A stretch of 64,000 nucleotides of DNA. Source: Halobellus rarus. GTDB lineage: Archaea; Halobacteriota; Halobacteria; Halobacteriales; Haloferacaceae. Location of the stretch: the NCBI RefSeq assembly GCF_024494595.1, contig NZ_JANHDI010000001.1, positions 496,001 through 560,000 on the forward strand. Reading direction: 5' to 3'. Below are positions 44,035 through 54,038 of the stretch, piece after piece. The notes below the pieces were generated by a model. It was not told the DNA's origin, ran no database searches, and was given only the letters and a program-made list of their open reading frames with translations. Each line of letters begins with the position of its first letter. Position 1 is the first letter of the stretch. A program made the position numbers and the translations under genes.

Positions 44035-44229
44035 TTACCGGAATTCCGGGACCTCGTCGTCGGTATCGCCTTCCGAGAAGACGTCCTCGCTACCCTCCGG
44101 ATCCGCGCAGTGGACGCAGACGCCCTGCTCGGTGTCGAAGTGGACCGAACAGACGGCCGCCCCGCAGCGGTGGCAGGCGTACTCGGCCTCGCGGCGCTCG
44201 CACACCTGGCAGACACCTGTCACGCTCAT
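44035..44229 (-). CDS. small zinc-finger protein
   Basis: 64 residues with two or three Cys/His knuckles: CQVC (residues 7-10), CHRC (19-22), then CVHC (38-41) and His. The arrangement is like haloarchaeal HIT-type/zf small proteins, which have about 60 residues. Its partner is unknown. Confidence 0.7.
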   Translation of the reverse strand: MSVTGVCQVCERREAEYACHRCGAAVCSVHFDTEQGVCVHCADPEGSEDVFSEGDTDDEVPEFR

Positions 44230-45123: not shown

Positions 45124-45174
45124 TCCGGCGTCGGTTCCGTCGTCGCGGTCGAAGCCAACGCGCCGAAGAAGAAC

Positions 45175-45182
45175 GCTTAAGT
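45175..45182 (+). promoter_or_regulatory. TATA-like box of tRNA-Val
   Basis: GCTTAAGT lies 27-34 bases upstream of the tRNA 5' end, the spacing of archaeal tRNA promoters. Confidence 0.5.
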
Positions 45183-45208
45183 CCGGCGACGGGGAAGAAT
45201 CGATGCGC

Positions 45209-45283
45209 GGGTCGGTGGTCTAGTCCGGTTATGACGGCTCCTTCACACGGAGCAGGCCGGCGGTTCGAATCCGCCCCGACCCA
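45209..45283 (+). tRNA. tRNA-Val (anticodon CAC)
   Basis: A complete 75-base tRNA: acceptor GGGTCGG/CCGACCC with discriminator A, anticodon stem GCTCC/GGAGC with loop TTCACAC and anticodon CAC, T-arm with GGTTCGAATCC. There is no intron. It marks the left border of the accessory gene cluster that follows. The 166 bases after it hold no recognisable gene. Confidence 0.95.
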
Positions 45284-45449
45284 TGTTTCTGCGGCGCATC
45301 ACGAGGAACCGAATGACGAGTCGCGCCGCAAAAATGGCGTTCCAGGCGGATTCGAGCCAGGGAGGTCGTGCTCCAGCCCGTACGTGTGGAATGCGGCCGC
45401 GTCCAGGTCCGCCTGCACGCGTTCACGCTTTCAGGATCGGTCGCCGGAT

Positions 45450-46763
45450 TCAGTTCTGCTCACTCGTTGCGTATCTCCGCCCCCCGACTTGACGCTCGAT
45501 AAACCGTTCGTACTCACCGAGGACGACCTCCGGGGTGAAATCCGCGGCCCGCTGCCGCAGGGACATCTCCGGCAGTGGGTGTCGGAGAGTCTCCAGAACG
45601 GCTGCGGCGAGCCCCGAGGCATCGCCCACTGGAGCGAGTCGACCGCACACCCCGCCCCCTTCAAGCAGTATCTCCCGAGGGCCGCTCGGACAGTCGGTGG
45701 CGACGATCTGGGTCCCACAGGCGAGCGCTTCGATGAGTACCGTGGGAAGCCCCTCGAAGCGGGAGGAGAGCATGAACACGCTGGCTCGGTACATGTAACG
45801 GTACGGGTTCTCGACGTATCCCGGGAACGACACGACATCCCCGATACCGAGCGTCTCGGCGAGGTTTAGCAAGCGCTCACGCTGCGAGCCCGTACCGGCC
45901 AGAACCCCCCTCGTGTTCGGGTTCGACTCGTGGACTTCGGCGAATGCTCGCAACCACGTCTCGAGGTCCTTTTGCTCCTCGTGTCGGCCGACGAAGACGA
46001 CGACGTCCAGGTCGTCGTCCTCGATCCACTCGTGGTCAACCGGACTGGCGGCCTGTTCGCGTATCGCACCGATATCGACAGGGTTGTGCAGGACCGACAT
46101 CTCGGCCGGATCGAGAGCCATCCGCTCAACCATACTGTCGAGGACGCCCTGTGAGACGCCAACGACGTGATCGGCCGTCGGAAACAGCCTGATGGCCAGG
46201 TACTCCAGTGCCCGACCTTTCGTCGTTTGGGACGGGGACTCCCCGAACGCACAGTGCTTGACCGGAACGATGACCGTGTCGACGTCGACCAGCCGGTTCG
46301 CTGCCAGACAGACGACGCTCGCGTGGGTCATCTGCGGGAAGATGATCGCCGGCTGCACGCGCTGGAGGTATCTGGCTAGCGCTGGAACGTGGGTGGCGAT
46401 ACCGAGTCCCGGGAGTATTGGTCCGAGTTCAGTGACGGTGACATCCGGTGAGATTTTCTCCGCGAGTCGACCCCTGAGGTCTGAGACGACTAGTTCGACA
46501 TCGTGGCCGCCTGCGGACAACCCGTTGACGATGGCGACCGTCACCTGCTCGGCCCCGCCGGTCATAAGATTCGGGATGTAGAACGTCAGTCTCGGTCCAC
46601 TGTTCGCACCTGTCGATCGATTTGTATGTCCATCTCCCGCGTCGGTGGTTCGTCTGGAAGCGAGGAGCGGCTCGATTACGGGTATTCCGCCGAGTAGTCC
46701 CGTCCTGGCGCCTCTCTCATTCCGGTGTCTCCCCCACGTTGCCACCGGCTTGGTACTCTTCAT
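45450..46763 (-). CDS. glycosyltransferase family 4
   Basis: 437 residues from ATG 46763. The GT-B core begins at about residue 58 (RLTFYIPNLMTGGAEQ), with VVFVGRHEEQKDLETWLRAF (about 254-273) and the nucleotide-sugar EX7E motif EGLPTVLIE near 340. The first 57 residues are charged and unusual, so the start may be wrong or the gene may have fused upstream sequence. No signal peptide. The acceptor sugar or lipid is unknown. It is the last gene of the operon-like block from 50.1 kb. Confidence 0.9.
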   Translation of the reverse strand: MKSTKPVATWGRHRNERGARTGLLGGIPVIEPLLASRRTTDAGDGHTNRSTGANSGPRLTFYIPNLMTGGAEQVTVAIVNGLSAGGHDVELVVSDLRGRLAEKISPDVTVTELGPILPGLGIATHVPALARYLQRVQPAIIFPQMTHASVVCLAANRLVDVDTVIVPVKHCAFGESPSQTTKGRALEYLAIRLFPTADHVVGVSQGVLDSMVERMALDPAEMSVLHNPVDIGAIREQAASPVDHEWIEDDDLDVVVFVGRHEEQKDLETWLRAFAEVHESNPNTRGVLAGTGSQRERLLNLAETLGIGDVVSFPGYVENPYRYMYRASVFMLSSRFEGLPTVLIEALACGTQIVATDCPSGPREILLEGGGVCGRLAPVGDASGLAAAVLETLRHPLPEMSLRQRAADFTPEVVLGEYERFIERQVGGRRYATSEQN

Positions 46764-47110
46764 TCGGCTACTGTTTGGTGTCTACTATCATTGTTAGAAA
46801 CCAGCTACCCTATCGACAGCGTGCGACCGTTCGTGGAAGTCGCTTCGTCGTCACGAGTACAGCTCGGTGTACTCTTCGCCGTCTTTCGGGAGGCCGAGCC
46901 GACACCGACCACCGGGACGAGAACCAGCAGGACGAGCACCACCTTGAGCGCCCGTGACCCTCCCTGGTCGGAACGGGGCGTTCCCAGGGCACGGACGACA
47001 TTCGGCTCGACCGCCGTCTCGAGACCGTCCCGCTTCACCTCATCGTCACGCCGACTGGCCGGCCGTTCGTAGACAGCGCTGTGGCCCCTGGAATCCACCG
47101 GTAATCCGCC
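46764..47110. other. 347-base gap between glycosyltransferase and ATP-grasp genes
   Basis: The right half is covered by the weak ORF 46805-47098. The left part (46764-46804) is AT-richer and may carry the glycosyltransferase promoter. No other frame is convincing; a lost gene is possible. Confidence 0.4.
46805..47098 (-). CDS. orphan ORF with one membrane helix, possibly truncated
   Basis: 97 residues from GTG 47098, same strand as its neighbours. Charged residues 1-48 precede a hydrophobic helix (KVVLVLLVLVPVVGVGSA, about 52-69), then a Ser/Thr-rich end. Codon quality is high to about residue 73 and then falls, as if the reading frame were broken. No family is recognised. It fills the 347-base gap between the glycosyltransferase and ATP-grasp genes. 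Alternatives are an N-terminal fragment of a lost membrane protein or no gene. Confidence 0.35.
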   Translation of the reverse strand: MDSRGHSAVYERPASRRDDEVKRDGLETAVEPNVVRALGTPRSDQGGSRALKVVLVLLVLVPVVGVGSASRKTAKSTPSCTRDDEATSTNGRTLSIG

Positions 47111-48277
47111 TCACCGAGGGAGCGGAACGGCTGACGCGACCAGCGACGACCCCGCCCGGAACAGGTGACACGCACCCGGAAGCGGATCGGCGAGCGCGAG
47201 CACGTCGTCGGTTCGTGGGGCGTCGTCCCGTCCGAGCACCTCCCTCAGCGCTCGAGCCTTGTCCTCCCGGGCGAGGAGGTGACCGATGTCACCGGTCAGG
47301 TTCCGTGCTTGGACGCCGACCCGGTACGTCAGCGAGGACTCACAGTGTCCGGTCGTCGCCAGCTGGTAGAGCAGGTACGGGAACTCCACGCCGGCGAACA
47401 CCGAGAGCGCAAGACTCCCCCATAGGCGCGGGTTCACCTCAAGCAGCTTCGGCTTGCCGTCCCGCGGGTCCACCCGGAACTCCGCCATAGCGACACCCTT
47501 CCAGTCTATGCTGGTGAACAGCCGGTCGGCCACCGCGACGAGTTCGGGGGCGGCGATGGTCTCTCTGAGCGTACTCGCGCCGCCGCCCGGGGGATTCGTC
47601 CGGAGGCGGCGCTGGACGGTCACCCCGGTCAGGGTCGACGAGCAGTCGTAAATGGTGTACACCCCTACCTCCCCGCCGTTGGGGACGAACTCCTGGATGA
47701 CTGACGGACCGTACTGTGCCCTGACCTCCTCGAACACGCGTTCGAGTTCGTCGGGTGACTCACAGACGTGGACCCCGAACCCCCCCGCTGCACGGCGCGG
47801 CTTGACGACCGCCGGGTAGCCGATCTCCGTCGCGACGGCGTCGAGGTCGAGCGTCGTCGGGGCGAGCGTGGCCGGCGCCGGTACGCCCGCCTCCCGGGCT
47901 GCCTCGAAGGTATACGCCTTGTCCAGGCCGACTTCCAGCCGCTCGAACGGGAGGAAGGGGAGGGTGGTGTGGGCTTCGACCCGCTCGCGGTTCCGGACGA
48001 CGGATGGGACCGTCACGGCCGTCAGCGGGAGGAGCATATCGTACTGTCGCTCCGTGAGCTCGCGCTCCAGCGCGTCGACGAACGCGGTCTCGCCGAGTCT
48101 GGGATGCGGGTACTGGAACCGACGGCTCGCGTACCGGGAGAACCCCCCGGAGTTCAATCGCTCGTCGGAGCCCGCGGTAACCTCGAGCCCGTGTCTACCC
48201 AGGGTTCGGACCGCCACGATCCCCTGTCGCCGGTGTGTCTCGAGGACGAGTACTCTCCCCGCGGATTCGTCACTCAT
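47111..48277 (-). CDS. ATP-grasp ligase-like protein (COG3919 type)
   Basis: 388 residues from ATG 48277. An N-terminal Rossmann-like domain (VLVLETHRRQGIVAVRTLGR) precedes the ATP-grasp fold, with GYPAVVKPRRAAGGFGVHVC (Lys, glycine loop; about 155-174) and the metal-binding end AEFRVDPRDGKPKLLEVNPR (about 265-284). It most likely activates a carboxylate with ATP and joins it to an amine; the partners are unknown. It overlaps the upstream Asn-synthase-like gene by 8 bases, which argues for a joint function. Confidence 0.88.
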   Translation of the reverse strand: MSDESAGRVLVLETHRRQGIVAVRTLGRHGLEVTAGSDERLNSGGFSRYASRRFQYPHPRLGETAFVDALERELTERQYDMLLPLTAVTVPSVVRNRERVEAHTTLPFLPFERLEVGLDKAYTFEAAREAGVPAPATLAPTTLDLDAVATEIGYPAVVKPRRAAGGFGVHVCESPDELERVFEEVRAQYGPSVIQEFVPNGGEVGVYTIYDCSSTLTGVTVQRRLRTNPPGGGASTLRETIAAPELVAVADRLFTSIDWKGVAMAEFRVDPRDGKPKLLEVNPRLWGSLALSVFAGVEFPYLLYQLATTGHCESSLTYRVGVQARNLTGDIGHLLAREDKARALREVLGRDDAPRTDDVLALADPLPGACHLFRAGSSLVASAVPLPR

Positions 48278-50090
48278 TTGCGACCGGATCGAGGTGGTGC
48301 TGGAGCCAGTACTCGACCGTGGTGATGCTCGCGAGCAGGGATGCGTTGTTGGCTCCGTTCATATGTTCGTCGAACGCCGCTCGAACCGTCGCCGCGTCGA
48401 ACAGCGGCCGCTCGCAGGCGTCTTCGACGAGTCCCGCGACGAGACGGTGGACCTCGGAGTCGGTGTCGCGGATCCACTGGTCGGCGAGCGAGCCGTTGCC
48501 GTAGGTGGCTTCCCCGCGGAGGCGGCCGACGAGAACGTTCAGCACGAATCCGACGGCGTGGGCCGGGTACAGCCACGACGGCTTCGTCTTCGTCCGCTCG
48601 TAGGTGACGTCTGCCACCGCGGGGGCGAGTCGCCGACAGAGCGCCAGTTTCGCCCGGGAGGTCCCCAGGGGGACGCCGCCGGCGTCGGAGCGGACGAAGT
48701 GCTCGGTGAAAGGGAACGTCCCCTTTCGGTACGCCTGCGGGAGCCGTGCACACCACTCCAGGTAGTCGCCGTCGACCTGCGGGGTCCGGCTCCCGGTCCG
48801 CTTGCGCATCACCCGGTCGCTCATCAACGTACTCCGGCTGTAGTAGTTCTGGAAGTGGGCGTCGAGCACCGTCCCCCTGTGGGTTGACTCGGGTGAACGT
48901 GCGGCCTCCTCACGGAACGTGGCGAGGGGGTCGACGTCGACGGTGAGTAGTCCGCGAACCGTTTCGGGTGTCCGAGCGGCCTCGCTCGCGTACTGCGCCT
49001 CGACGGCGGAGTCGCTCTCTAGATGGTAGCGGAACGGGTGGTCGCCGACCAGCTCGCCCTGCATCCCCTCGAGCATCACCGGTGGGAGGGAATCGATGTT
49101 GTACGTCGCCGAGAGGTTGGCGAGGGAATTCCACTGGATGGTCCCGTCCGTCGCCTCGATGACTCGCTCGAATACCTCGGCGAACGTTTCGTCGGTCAGC
49201 GGAACCTCCTCGTGTTCGATACCGAGCGCCGTTGCGACCCGGGCAGCGATCTCGGGATTGTCCTTCGTCGGCGGGTTCGAGTCGTAGGTGAAGCTTCGCA
49301 ATCGCCGGAAGTCGGTCGAATCTGTCCGTCCGACGTCGTTCAGGACCGCCACCGTCGTACGGCTGTCGAGCCCACCGGAGAGCCAGATTCCGGCCTCTGC
49401 CGGTAGCGTCCTCGCGGTTCGCGCGACGGCCTGCCGGTACCGCCGGACCAGTTCACGCGTGTAGCGCTCGTCGGCCTCCGCCTCCTCGTAGTTCGGCCGC
49501 CAGTACCGTTCCGTGGAGACGGTCCCGTTGGTCGCCCGGAGCACCGTCGCCGGCCGGACCATCCGGATCCCCTCGACCAGCGTCCGGTCACCCCACAGGT
49601 GCCCCATAAGCAGCATATCGGCCACCGCCTGCAGGTCGACCGCCGGTTCGTGCAGCCGCGAGACGAGCGTCCCGACGCTGTCCGCGAACCAGCGCCCGTC
49701 AGTCGTGTAGAAACAGGGTCTCGAGCCGAGCTTGTCGGTTACGACGGTCCACTGATCCGTCGCGGCGTCGTGACCGACGAGGAGGAACGCGCCCTCGATC
49801 TCGGCCGGGAGCGCGGCGTCGCCGTCGAGCAGTCGCTCGAACAACTCGTCGTGTGTCGTCCCCAGCTCGTCGAGGTTCGTGACGGCCCCACAGAGGATAC
49901 CGACCCGGTCGCCGGCCTCGTACTTCCACACTCCCCTGTGGTCGTCTGGGAGATACGTGAGGGATGCACCCCGTCCGCCGTGTCTGTGTGTCCACTCGAT
50001 GGGTGTGTTTCCGTCTCCGCCGCGTACTGACTCCGTCCCATCTTGCGCCTCCAGACAGTCCGTGGAATATTGATATTCAAAGGGGTTCAT
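48270..50090 (-). CDS. asparagine-synthase-like enzyme lacking Cys at position 2
   Basis: 606 residues. The synthetase part has the PP-loop motif IWLSGGLDSRTT (about 233-244), with FTYDSNPPTKDNPEIAAR and EVPLTDETF following. The N-terminal region resembles a class II glutaminase (GDAALPAEIEGAFLLVGHDA near 90-110), but the protein begins Met-Asn-Pro and no Cys follows Met, so glutamine cleavage is not expected. An in-frame stop lies at 50112-50114, excluding a longer start. It could be an AMP-forming amide/cyclase enzyme using free ammonia or an internal amine. An AATTATC box lies about 29-35 bases upstream. Confidence 0.85.
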   Translation of the reverse strand: MNPFEYQYSTDCLEAQDGTESVRGGDGNTPIEWTHRHGGRGASLTYLPDDHRGVWKYEAGDRVGILCGAVTNLDELGTTHDELFERLLDGDAALPAEIEGAFLLVGHDAATDQWTVVTDKLGSRPCFYTTDGRWFADSVGTLVSRLHEPAVDLQAVADMLLMGHLWGDRTLVEGIRMVRPATVLRATNGTVSTERYWRPNYEEAEADERYTRELVRRYRQAVARTARTLPAEAGIWLSGGLDSRTTVAVLNDVGRTDSTDFRRLRSFTYDSNPPTKDNPEIAARVATALGIEHEEVPLTDETFAEVFERVIEATDGTIQWNSLANLSATYNIDSLPPVMLEGMQGELVGDHPFRYHLESDSAVEAQYASEAARTPETVRGLLTVDVDPLATFREEAARSPESTHRGTVLDAHFQNYYSRSTLMSDRVMRKRTGSRTPQVDGDYLEWCARLPQAYRKGTFPFTEHFVRSDAGGVPLGTSRAKLALCRRLAPAVADVTYERTKTKPSWLYPAHAVGFVLNVLVGRLRGEATYGNGSLADQWIRDTDSEVHRLVAGLVEDACERPLFDAATVRAAFDEHMNGANNASLLASITTVEYWLQHHLDPVANE

Positions 50091-50337
50091 ATCTGTATCG
50101 AGGAGTACATATCATCTTGATAATTGGATGTATCTTCGTTATTCGCTCTGTAACGTCCTCAATTCTGGCCACTACCGGTACGGACACCGCTAACCCTCGG
50201 CTAAACAGTATCGAGTCGGAAGCCCGAGGTTCGAAGGCGAATCCGGATCCCACTCGATATATCCGCTCCGACTCGTACACGACCTGAATCGACCGCCGCG
50301 CTCGGGCTTTATGTTGCTTGGAGCCGAATTGACAGGT

Positions 50338-50724
50338 ATGGCCGATACGAAAGAGGGACGAGAGAACCAAGCGGCAGACGAGGAGCGACGTCAGCGAGAG
50401 CGAGCACTCAAGGAGGCCCTGGCCCGTACGGACGAGGCCGAACCGCCTGCCGACGACCGGGGGGAACCGGCGACGAGCGGTGAAGGCGGCGACTCGATCG
50501 ACGTTCCTCTCACGTGTCACCGGCGCAACTGCGAGGAATCCGCGGAATTTCTCGTGCTCGAACGGTATCAAGAGGAGACCGGGAAAGGCGCTGTCGAGGC
50601 AACGGCGGCGCTCTGTCGGGACCACACGGACGAGGAGAGCCCGACGAACCTCGACGGCGTCTACGACGACTACGTGTTCCGCGTCGTCCCGCTTCCCGAA
50701 TCCTTCAGACGGGACACCGACTAG
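50338..50724 (+). CDS. conserved haloarchaeal protein of unknown function
   Basis: 128 residues from ATG 50338. The N-terminal 55 residues are acidic/charged and probably disordered; the C-terminal part has Cys/His spaced as CHRRNCEE (about 59-66) and ALCRDHTDEE (about 88-97), a possible metal site. The pattern is reminiscent of small haloarchaeal zinc-binding proteins but no name can be given. An AT-containing leader precedes it and the K+ channel gene follows 77 bases later. Confidence 0.6.
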   Translation: MADTKEGRENQAADEERRQRERALKEALARTDEAEPPADDRGEPATSGEGGDSIDVPLTCHRRNCEESAEFLVLERYQEETGKGAVEATAALCRDHTDEESPTNLDGVYDDYVFRVVPLPESFRRDTD

Positions 50725-53084: not shown

Positions 53085-54038
53085 TCAGTCCCGGAATCCT
53101 TGTCGCCTGTCGCCGCCTTCGGCGGCCTCTTCACCGTCCTCGTCTTCGCTGCTTGCTCCGTCGTCGCCGTCCCCTCCGGGTTCGTCGCTGCTCGTGTCCC
53201 CGTCAGAGTCGCTGCTCTCGGTGTCTCCGCCAGCCTCCTCACTGTCACCGTCTCTGTCGCCGTCGGCACCGGCTATCACCCCGTCGATCTCTTTGCTGAC
53301 GGTCTCTTCGACGGTTTCGGTCACCTCCTCGGTTACCTCTTCGCTGACAGTCTCGCCCACCTTTTCGGCGACCTCGTCGACCTCGTCGCTGACGGTGTCT
53401 TCGACCGTTTTTTCGACTTTCTCGCTGACGGTGTCCTCGACGGTCTTCTCGACGGTTTCGCTGACCGTGTCTTCCACCGTGTCTTCTACCGTCTTCTCGA
53501 CGGTTTCGTTGACCGTGTCTTCCACCGTGTCTTCTACCGTCTTCTCGACGGTTTCGTTGACCGTGTCTTCCACCGTCTTCTCGACCTCTTCGCTGACGGT
53601 TTCGTCGACAGTTTCCTCGACCTTCTCGCTGACCGTCTCACCGACTGTCTTCTCGACTTCTTTGCTGACGGTTTCGCCGACGGTTTTCTCGACCGTCTCG
53701 CCGACCGTCTTCTCGACTGTTTCTCCAACAGTTTTCTCGACCGTCTCGTCGACGGTCTTTTCGACCTCCTCGCTGACGGTCTCGCCGACGCTCTTCTCGA
53801 CTTCCTTGGTCACCGTGTCCCCGACAGTTTCCTCGATCCGCTCGGCCACTTCCCGGGTCATCCAGTCGGGGTCGAACCGCGACATCTTCCAGCCGATGTG
53901 GATGACGTACGAGACCAGTACGCCGAGGCCGAACGCGACCCCGACGGCGGTCTCGACCAGGAGGATCAGTCCGATTGCGACGAAGATCGTAACGCCGTAC
54001 GCGAGATCCGTGATGAAGTCGGCGCGGGCCGGGTTCAT
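53085..54038 (-). CDS. membrane-anchored Val/Thr/Glu-repeat protein
   Basis: 317 residues. Two hydrophobic helices (about 10-30 and 33-52) are followed by a uniform helical repeat from about 64 to 251, in which Val recurs every fourth residue (ETVEKTVG-like 8-residue units) alternating Glu, Lys and Thr, then a disordered Asp/Glu/Ser/Gly tail. There are no Cys or Trp in the repeat. DNA in the gene is itself a tandem repeat. It is probably a long charged amphipathic helix or coiled coil projecting from the membrane. The function is unknown; no family is recognised by eye. Confidence 0.75.
   Translation of the reverse strand: MNPARADFITDLAYGVTIFVAIGLILLVETAVGVAFGLGVLVSYVIHIGWKMSRFDPDWMTREVAERIEETVGDTVTKEVEKSVGETVSEEVEKTVDETVEKTVGETVEKTVGETVEKTVGETVSKEVEKTVGETVSEKVEETVDETVSEEVEKTVEDTVNETVEKTVEDTVEDTVNETVEKTVEDTVEDTVSETVEKTVEDTVSEKVEKTVEDTVSDEVDEVAEKVGETVSEEVTEEVTETVEETVSKEIDGVIAGADGDRDGDSEEAGGDTESSDSDGDTSSDEPGGDGDDGASSEDEDGEEAAEGGDRRQGFRD
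53463..53580. repeat. 48-bp perfect tandem repeat, about 2.5 copies
   Basis: The unit at 53463-53510 is repeated without change at 53511-53558, and its first 18 bases recur at 53559. It encodes 16-residue blocks of the Val/Thr/Glu repeat protein. Its presence as exact DNA copies indicates recent expansion. Confidence 0.85.

Follow-up and report, generated by a model that had tools for sequence, protein, structure and literature searches.

A tRNA-Val islet of Halobellus rarus encoding an Asn-synthase-like protein without the glutaminase cysteine, an ATP-grasp protein and a GT4 glycosyltransferase

Described AsnB-like and ATP-grasp enzymes

In bacteria, formation of a uronamide-type linking sugar in a Wbp pathway requires the AsnB-like protein WbpS, and WbpS, WbqG and PGN_1234 are AsnB-like amidotransferases with a shown or proposed role in uronamide formation (PMC7468200). 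The AsnB fold and an intact synthetase site are also features of beta-lactam synthetase (1jgt/1mbz) and carbapenam synthetase (1q15), which belong to antibiotic clusters and act on defined amino-acid substrates. In these synthetases the N-terminal Ntn domain is non-catalytic. The exopolysaccharides of Haloferax mediterranei and H. denitrificans contain N-acetylated uronic acids and no carboxyl amide (PMC3191746); alanine on the H. denitrificans polysaccharide was considered and rejected after a check of the literature. For archaeal polysaccharides, no report was found of uronic acids that carry ammonia, amino acids or amino sugars in amide linkage, and a literature search for AsnB-like genes within glycan loci of haloarchaea returned nothing relevant.

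The Asn-synthase-like protein described here and its haloarchaeal relatives share with WbpS, WbqG and PGN_1234 the AsnB fold and an association with polysaccharide loci containing UDP-uronic-acid genes. However, the protein scores far below the cut-off of the WbpS-type model TIGR03108 (eps_aminotran_1; 49.2 versus 816.9 bits) and its family lacks a cysteine after the initiator Met (Cys2). Fold and profile searches identify TsnB9, beta-lactam synthetase and AsnB as the nearest solved folds. The hydroxyamidotransferase TsnB9 (7ylz) is the top match by both profile (E 5e-25) and fold (E 2.5e-19), but is only 16% identical and has another genomic setting. The beta-lactam and carbapenam synthetases share the fold with the H. 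rarus protein, with a TM-score (by target length) of up to 0.64, and likewise keep the synthetase site intact, although genes of the antibiotic-cluster type are absent at the H. rarus locus. The neighbouring ATP-grasp protein shares its fold and an E-x-N-x-R motif with L-amino-acid ligase BL00235 (3vot), 2pn1 and PylC (4ffl), but with identities of 22% or less.

The tRNA-Val islet and its genes

The window, the whole stretch of H. rarus DNA analysed (64,000 nucleotides; contig NZ_JANHDI010000001.1, positions 496,001–560,000), contains three co-oriented genes beside a tRNA-Val gene. The genes are real and placed as the first-pass annotation had described, coordinates and Pfam profile matches being in agreement. 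Their order of transcription on the minus strand is an Asn-synthase-like gene (48270–50090, 606 aa; PF00733 E 7.6e-17), an ATP-grasp gene (47111–48277, 388 aa; PF15632/PF02655 E about 1e-10) and a GT4 glycosyltransferase gene (45450–46763, 437 aa; PF00534 E 3.5e-31), with tRNA-Val(CAC) next on the opposite strand (45209–45283; ARAGORN). All three ORFs are full length, the first two overlap by 8 bases, 347 bases separate the second from the third, and the Pfam matches of all three products exceed the curated cut-offs. GC content at third positions is 0.74–0.84 in these genes against 0.79–0.94 in most core neighbours, and this somewhat lower value is a weak sign of foreign origin. A 97-aa ORF with one hydrophobic stretch (46805–47098, minus strand), listed earlier as a possible fourth, membrane-protein gene, has no Pfam or NCBIfam match, gave nothing significant in a comparison with the fetched loci (best E 0.3), and was dropped by the gene caller; lacking relatives, it is rejected as a gene and is probably spurious.

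The genes form a 4.9-kb accessory islet (about 45372–50285, no strand) that is missing from Halobellus limi. In a blastn comparison of window positions 45151–50400 with the H. limi locus (L135, genome G397) the left match stops at 45371 and the right match begins at 50286. G397 appears to be H. limi, the position of its AsnB-like gene matching that in NZ_CP031312.1. Two congeners lack the islet: in H. limi the genes that follow the block in the window (orf128, an ion channel gene, MetE and others) lie within about 400 bases of the tRNA, and in a second congener (G394) orf128 lies within about 160 bases. The Grx and PduO genes upstream are conserved in 11 congeners, and the tRNA is conserved too in most of these. 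With an empty site and clean junctions in congeners, the earlier description of an accessory block at a tRNA gene stands.

Other genomes have different genes at the tRNA-Val site, one of them with a transposase fragment, and a site that is empty or otherwise filled in relatives is one mark of a mobile element. Extra copies of the tRNA 3′ end, 17–25 bases long, are situated just downstream in five congeners (G393, G254, G216, G399 and G352), and H. limi has two degenerate copies. Because of these copies and the differing gene content in relatives, the site seems to be in use by mobile DNA. Two other marks of a mobile element were sought: the islet genes include no integrase gene, and no second copy of the tRNA 3′ end lies on the far side within the window, where the best similarity is equalled by 6–7% of other window stretches and is not above chance. 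A far-side attachment repeat, a search for which had been suggested, is therefore rejected in the window, though relatives show use of the site. In the H. limi locus (L135 2644–2987) the 3′ end of tRNA-Val(CAC) is repeated in tandem, in a degenerate unit of about 150 bases, and in five further Halobellus loci (L134, L136, L138, L140 and L141) tRNA-Val(CAC) is followed by at least one copy of its own 3′ end.

The Asn-synthase-like family and the accompanying enzymes

The Asn-synthase-like protein contains a PF00733 synthetase domain (62.4 bits; cut-off 21), and the ATP-grasp protein exceeds the cut-offs of PF15632, PF02655 and PF02786. Together with the conserved motifs of both proteins, these domains are consistent with the ATP-using, amide-forming enzyme classes named in the first-pass annotation. 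The ATP-grasp protein keeps the E-x-N-P-R motif in the family alignment, and its AF2 model (pLDDT 91) is closest in fold to the L-amino-acid ligase 3vot, followed by biotin carboxylases, 2pn1 and PylC; as judged from the model, it fits a carboxylate-amine ligase. The third protein has the domains of a typical GT4 enzyme (PF00534 and PF13439, 108.5 and 60.1 bits, above cut-offs). Its homology begins near residue 43–58, and the true start may be internal, downstream of that annotated.

The Asn-synthase-like family is large and widespread among haloarchaea. Counting the window, 60 loci encoding clear members were collected, and position 2 was counted in the 52 members whose start is set by the family motif. 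The window protein begins MNPFEYQY, and the absence of a glutaminase Cys, noted earlier for this protein, extends to all 52 relatives, in which Met is followed by Thr (29), Pro (13), Ser (6) or Val (4). The Cys after Met expected of glutamine-dependent asparagine synthetases (TIGR01536) is thus found in none of them. Since Cys2 is absent across the family, its members are predicted not to take glutamine-derived ammonia in the usual way. The relatives start with M-[TSPV]-G, mostly extended as G-x-x-G-G, and because this start motif is conserved while Cys2 is absent, the family looks to have retained an apparent N-terminal strand of the Ntn domain without its nucleophile. The idea that a Thr or Ser at position 2 takes the place of the Ntn nucleophile is rejected, because 17 of the 52 relatives have Pro or Val there. 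A scan of the genome collection by peptide pattern returned one locus only, in Halosimplex.

The synthetase site is conserved: the P-loop reads SGGLDSR, with Arg following SGGLDS, in 45 of 47 aligned family members. Two members have altered P-loops, SGDLDDR and PGDADSR (L078 9128–10903 and L091 8678–10468), which suggests that synthetase activity may have been lost in some lineages.

The window protein itself lacks the family start motif M-x-G-x-x-G-G. The form M-[TS]-G-x-x-G-G does not occur in other frames upstream of the gene, and loss of the N-terminus by frameshift is therefore rejected. Because this N-terminal motif is otherwise conserved in the family, its loss could mean that the window copy is impaired. 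The structure prediction proposed earlier for the N-terminus gave a confident AF2 model of the whole protein (pLDDT 89) but one of low confidence over residues 1–50.

Gene neighbourhoods and the predicted role of the islet

At least 35 of the 60 AsnB-like loci have glycan-type neighbours, including glycosyltransferase, flippase, UDP-sugar dehydrogenase, epimerase, DUF1616, FemAB-like and Gfo/Idh genes. The Haloferax mediterranei locus, for example, has a UDP-sugar dehydrogenase, a Gfo/Idh, a DegT aminotransferase, an acyltransferase, wecB, a flippase-type gene and an ATP-grasp gene, and further plasmid examples in polysaccharide loci are found in H. gibbonsii, H. limi, Salinigranum marinum and Haloarcula sinaiiensis. 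The other 25 loci, a few of which are short contigs, have no recognised glycan neighbour; they include an entire Haladaptatus group as well as loci next to rpoB or orc1/cdc6 genes, and in Haladaptatus, Halorussus and some others the AsnB-like gene lies among unrelated genes. In three loci of one genus (L042, L043 and L049) it lies beside genes for large beta-helix-like proteins, a few genes from an RNA polymerase subunit B gene, and the surrounding region is otherwise core.

A second, divergent Asn-synthase-like copy is encoded on contig 20 of the window's own genome. The window AsnB is 55% identical to this copy, 54% to that of H. limi and 57% to that of one distant genome (G230), and the window GT4 is 65%, 64% and 58% identical to its closest relatives in the same three places, in each of which the AsnB–GT4 pair shares one glycan locus. 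Because the contig-20 and H. limi AsnB proteins are 93% identical, the glycan locus of contig 20 appears to be the resident locus, and the islet a second, divergent version that has gained an ATP-grasp gene. Between the resident GT4 and AsnB-like genes lies a degenerate-looking beta-helix-like coding stretch (L034 10900–12290).

Recurrence of the ATP-grasp gene is sparser. AsnB is directly adjacent to an ATP-grasp gene, 57% identical to that of the window, once (L047 of genome G034), and AsnB-like and ATP-grasp genes share one locus in several other genomes. A hand count found the AsnB family in 4 of the roughly 20 genomes that encode a close ATP-grasp relative, which is near chance; genome-level co-occurrence is thus rejected as a link, and only local adjacency supports one. 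The complete trio was found nowhere else in the samples of the order and the family, where the first-look search stage scores few candidates per genome. Relatives of the three genes are mostly apart from one another, and a dedicated new three-gene system, as first envisaged, is not borne out; the cassette was most likely assembled from parts that also occur separately. Against that joint system count this independence and, in part, the family-wide absence of Cys2.

The best explanation, with a probability of about 0.5, is that the islet was horizontally acquired and is an accessory cassette that modifies a surface polysaccharide through ammonia- or amine-dependent amide synthesis. We infer as follows which substrates and nitrogen source are used and how the three products act together. 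With its Asn-synthase domain conserved, the first enzyme would activate a carboxylate by adenylation at its intact ATP-pyrophosphatase domain; the carboxylate is probably carried by a uronic acid or acyl group of the glycan precursor. Attack on the adenylate by free ammonia or an amine, rather than by ammonia released from glutamine, would give the amide, AMP and PPi. The ATP-grasp enzyme could make a further amide or peptide bond by way of an acyl phosphate, releasing ADP and Pi, for example in amino-acid supply or attachment, and the GT4 enzyme would add a sugar to a lipid-linked glycan. Other glycan loci of the genome would supply the flippase, nucleotide-sugar and polymerising functions.

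Amidation of a glycan carboxylate is proposed from the WbpS precedent and from the similar uronic-acid genes in loci of the haloarchaeal family. Because relatives of the Asn-synthase-like gene are often in polysaccharide loci, an amidated or amino-acylated surface glycan is the best-placed among the products considered in the first-pass annotation. Counting against a glycan role are the 25 of 60 loci without a glycan neighbour, the unrepeated trio, the amide-free published structures and the lost N-terminal motif. If the idea is right, the absence of a carboxyl amide from the H. mediterranei and H. denitrificans structures may mean that another glycan is modified or that an amide was overlooked. 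A more specific proposal, that a glutaminase-dead AsnB-like family, here joined with an ATP-grasp ligase, couples ammonia, amino acids or amino sugars by amide bonds to the uronic acids of surface glycans in haloarchaea, is tentative and somewhat doubtful.

The islet might instead be a decaying fragment of a glycan locus that has lost the N-terminal strand and the flippase and sugar-nucleotide genes and contributes little or nothing. The missing start motif, the low-confidence first 50 residues of the model, the orphan ORF amid the islet genes and the degenerate-looking stretch adjoining the contig-20 paralogue would all fit decay, but the three ORFs are full length and family-conserved positions are largely kept (98% in the ATP-grasp protein and 88% in the Asn-synthase-like protein). 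Moreover, four of the ten positions lost in the latter fall in the first 51 residues, a region already non-catalytic across the family, and decay is considered unlikely.

Synthesis of a small molecule or modified peptide (a lactam, lasso-like product or hydroxamate) in place of a glycan is a still less probable role. The closeness of TsnB9 and beta-lactam synthetase, alongside AsnB, by fold and profile points in that direction, as do weak matches to lasso cyclase models. However, the lasso peptide cyclase model NF033535 gives 30.5 bits against a far higher cut-off of 525, and no precursor peptide is seen, only the orphan 97-aa ORF lying between the three genes. The islet also lacks a transporter, protease or other natural-product gene, whereas it includes a GT4 gene, and glycan genes are among the neighbours of many relatives. 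That the family is an ammonia-dependent asparagine synthetase with incidental neighbours is very improbable: the core fold and P-loop are the same and plasmid-borne relatives are nearly all annotated as 'asparagine synthase-related', but the protein scores 89.3 bits against the TIGR01536 equivalog cut-off of 267.1, has SGGLDSR in place of SGGLDSS, is patchily distributed, accessory and often in glycan loci, and occurs as two divergent copies in this genome.

With a cassette for surface-polysaccharide modification as the preferred reading, the more interesting outcome is the absence of the glutaminase Cys throughout haloarchaeal AsnB-like proteins, many of them encoded in polysaccharide loci. 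Such genes are common in these loci, yet carry only the 'asparagine synthase-related' label; their products are predicted not to be asparagine synthetases and not to use glutamine normally, which points to possible carboxyl amidation of surface glycans. Haloferax mediterranei and H. limi, whose family members are E6P09_RS16775 and DV707_RS16105 respectively, are tractable hosts.

Two other ORFs lie on the minus strand on either side of the islet. One (44035–44229) encodes a 64-aa cysteine-rich, zinc-finger-like product and resembles an ORF of at least one congener (L140 1451–1639). The product of the other (53085–54038), 317 aa long, combines a hydrophobic N-terminal segment with a long, regular repeat of the 'EKTVEDTVxETV' type, the alignable part of which varies among congeners.
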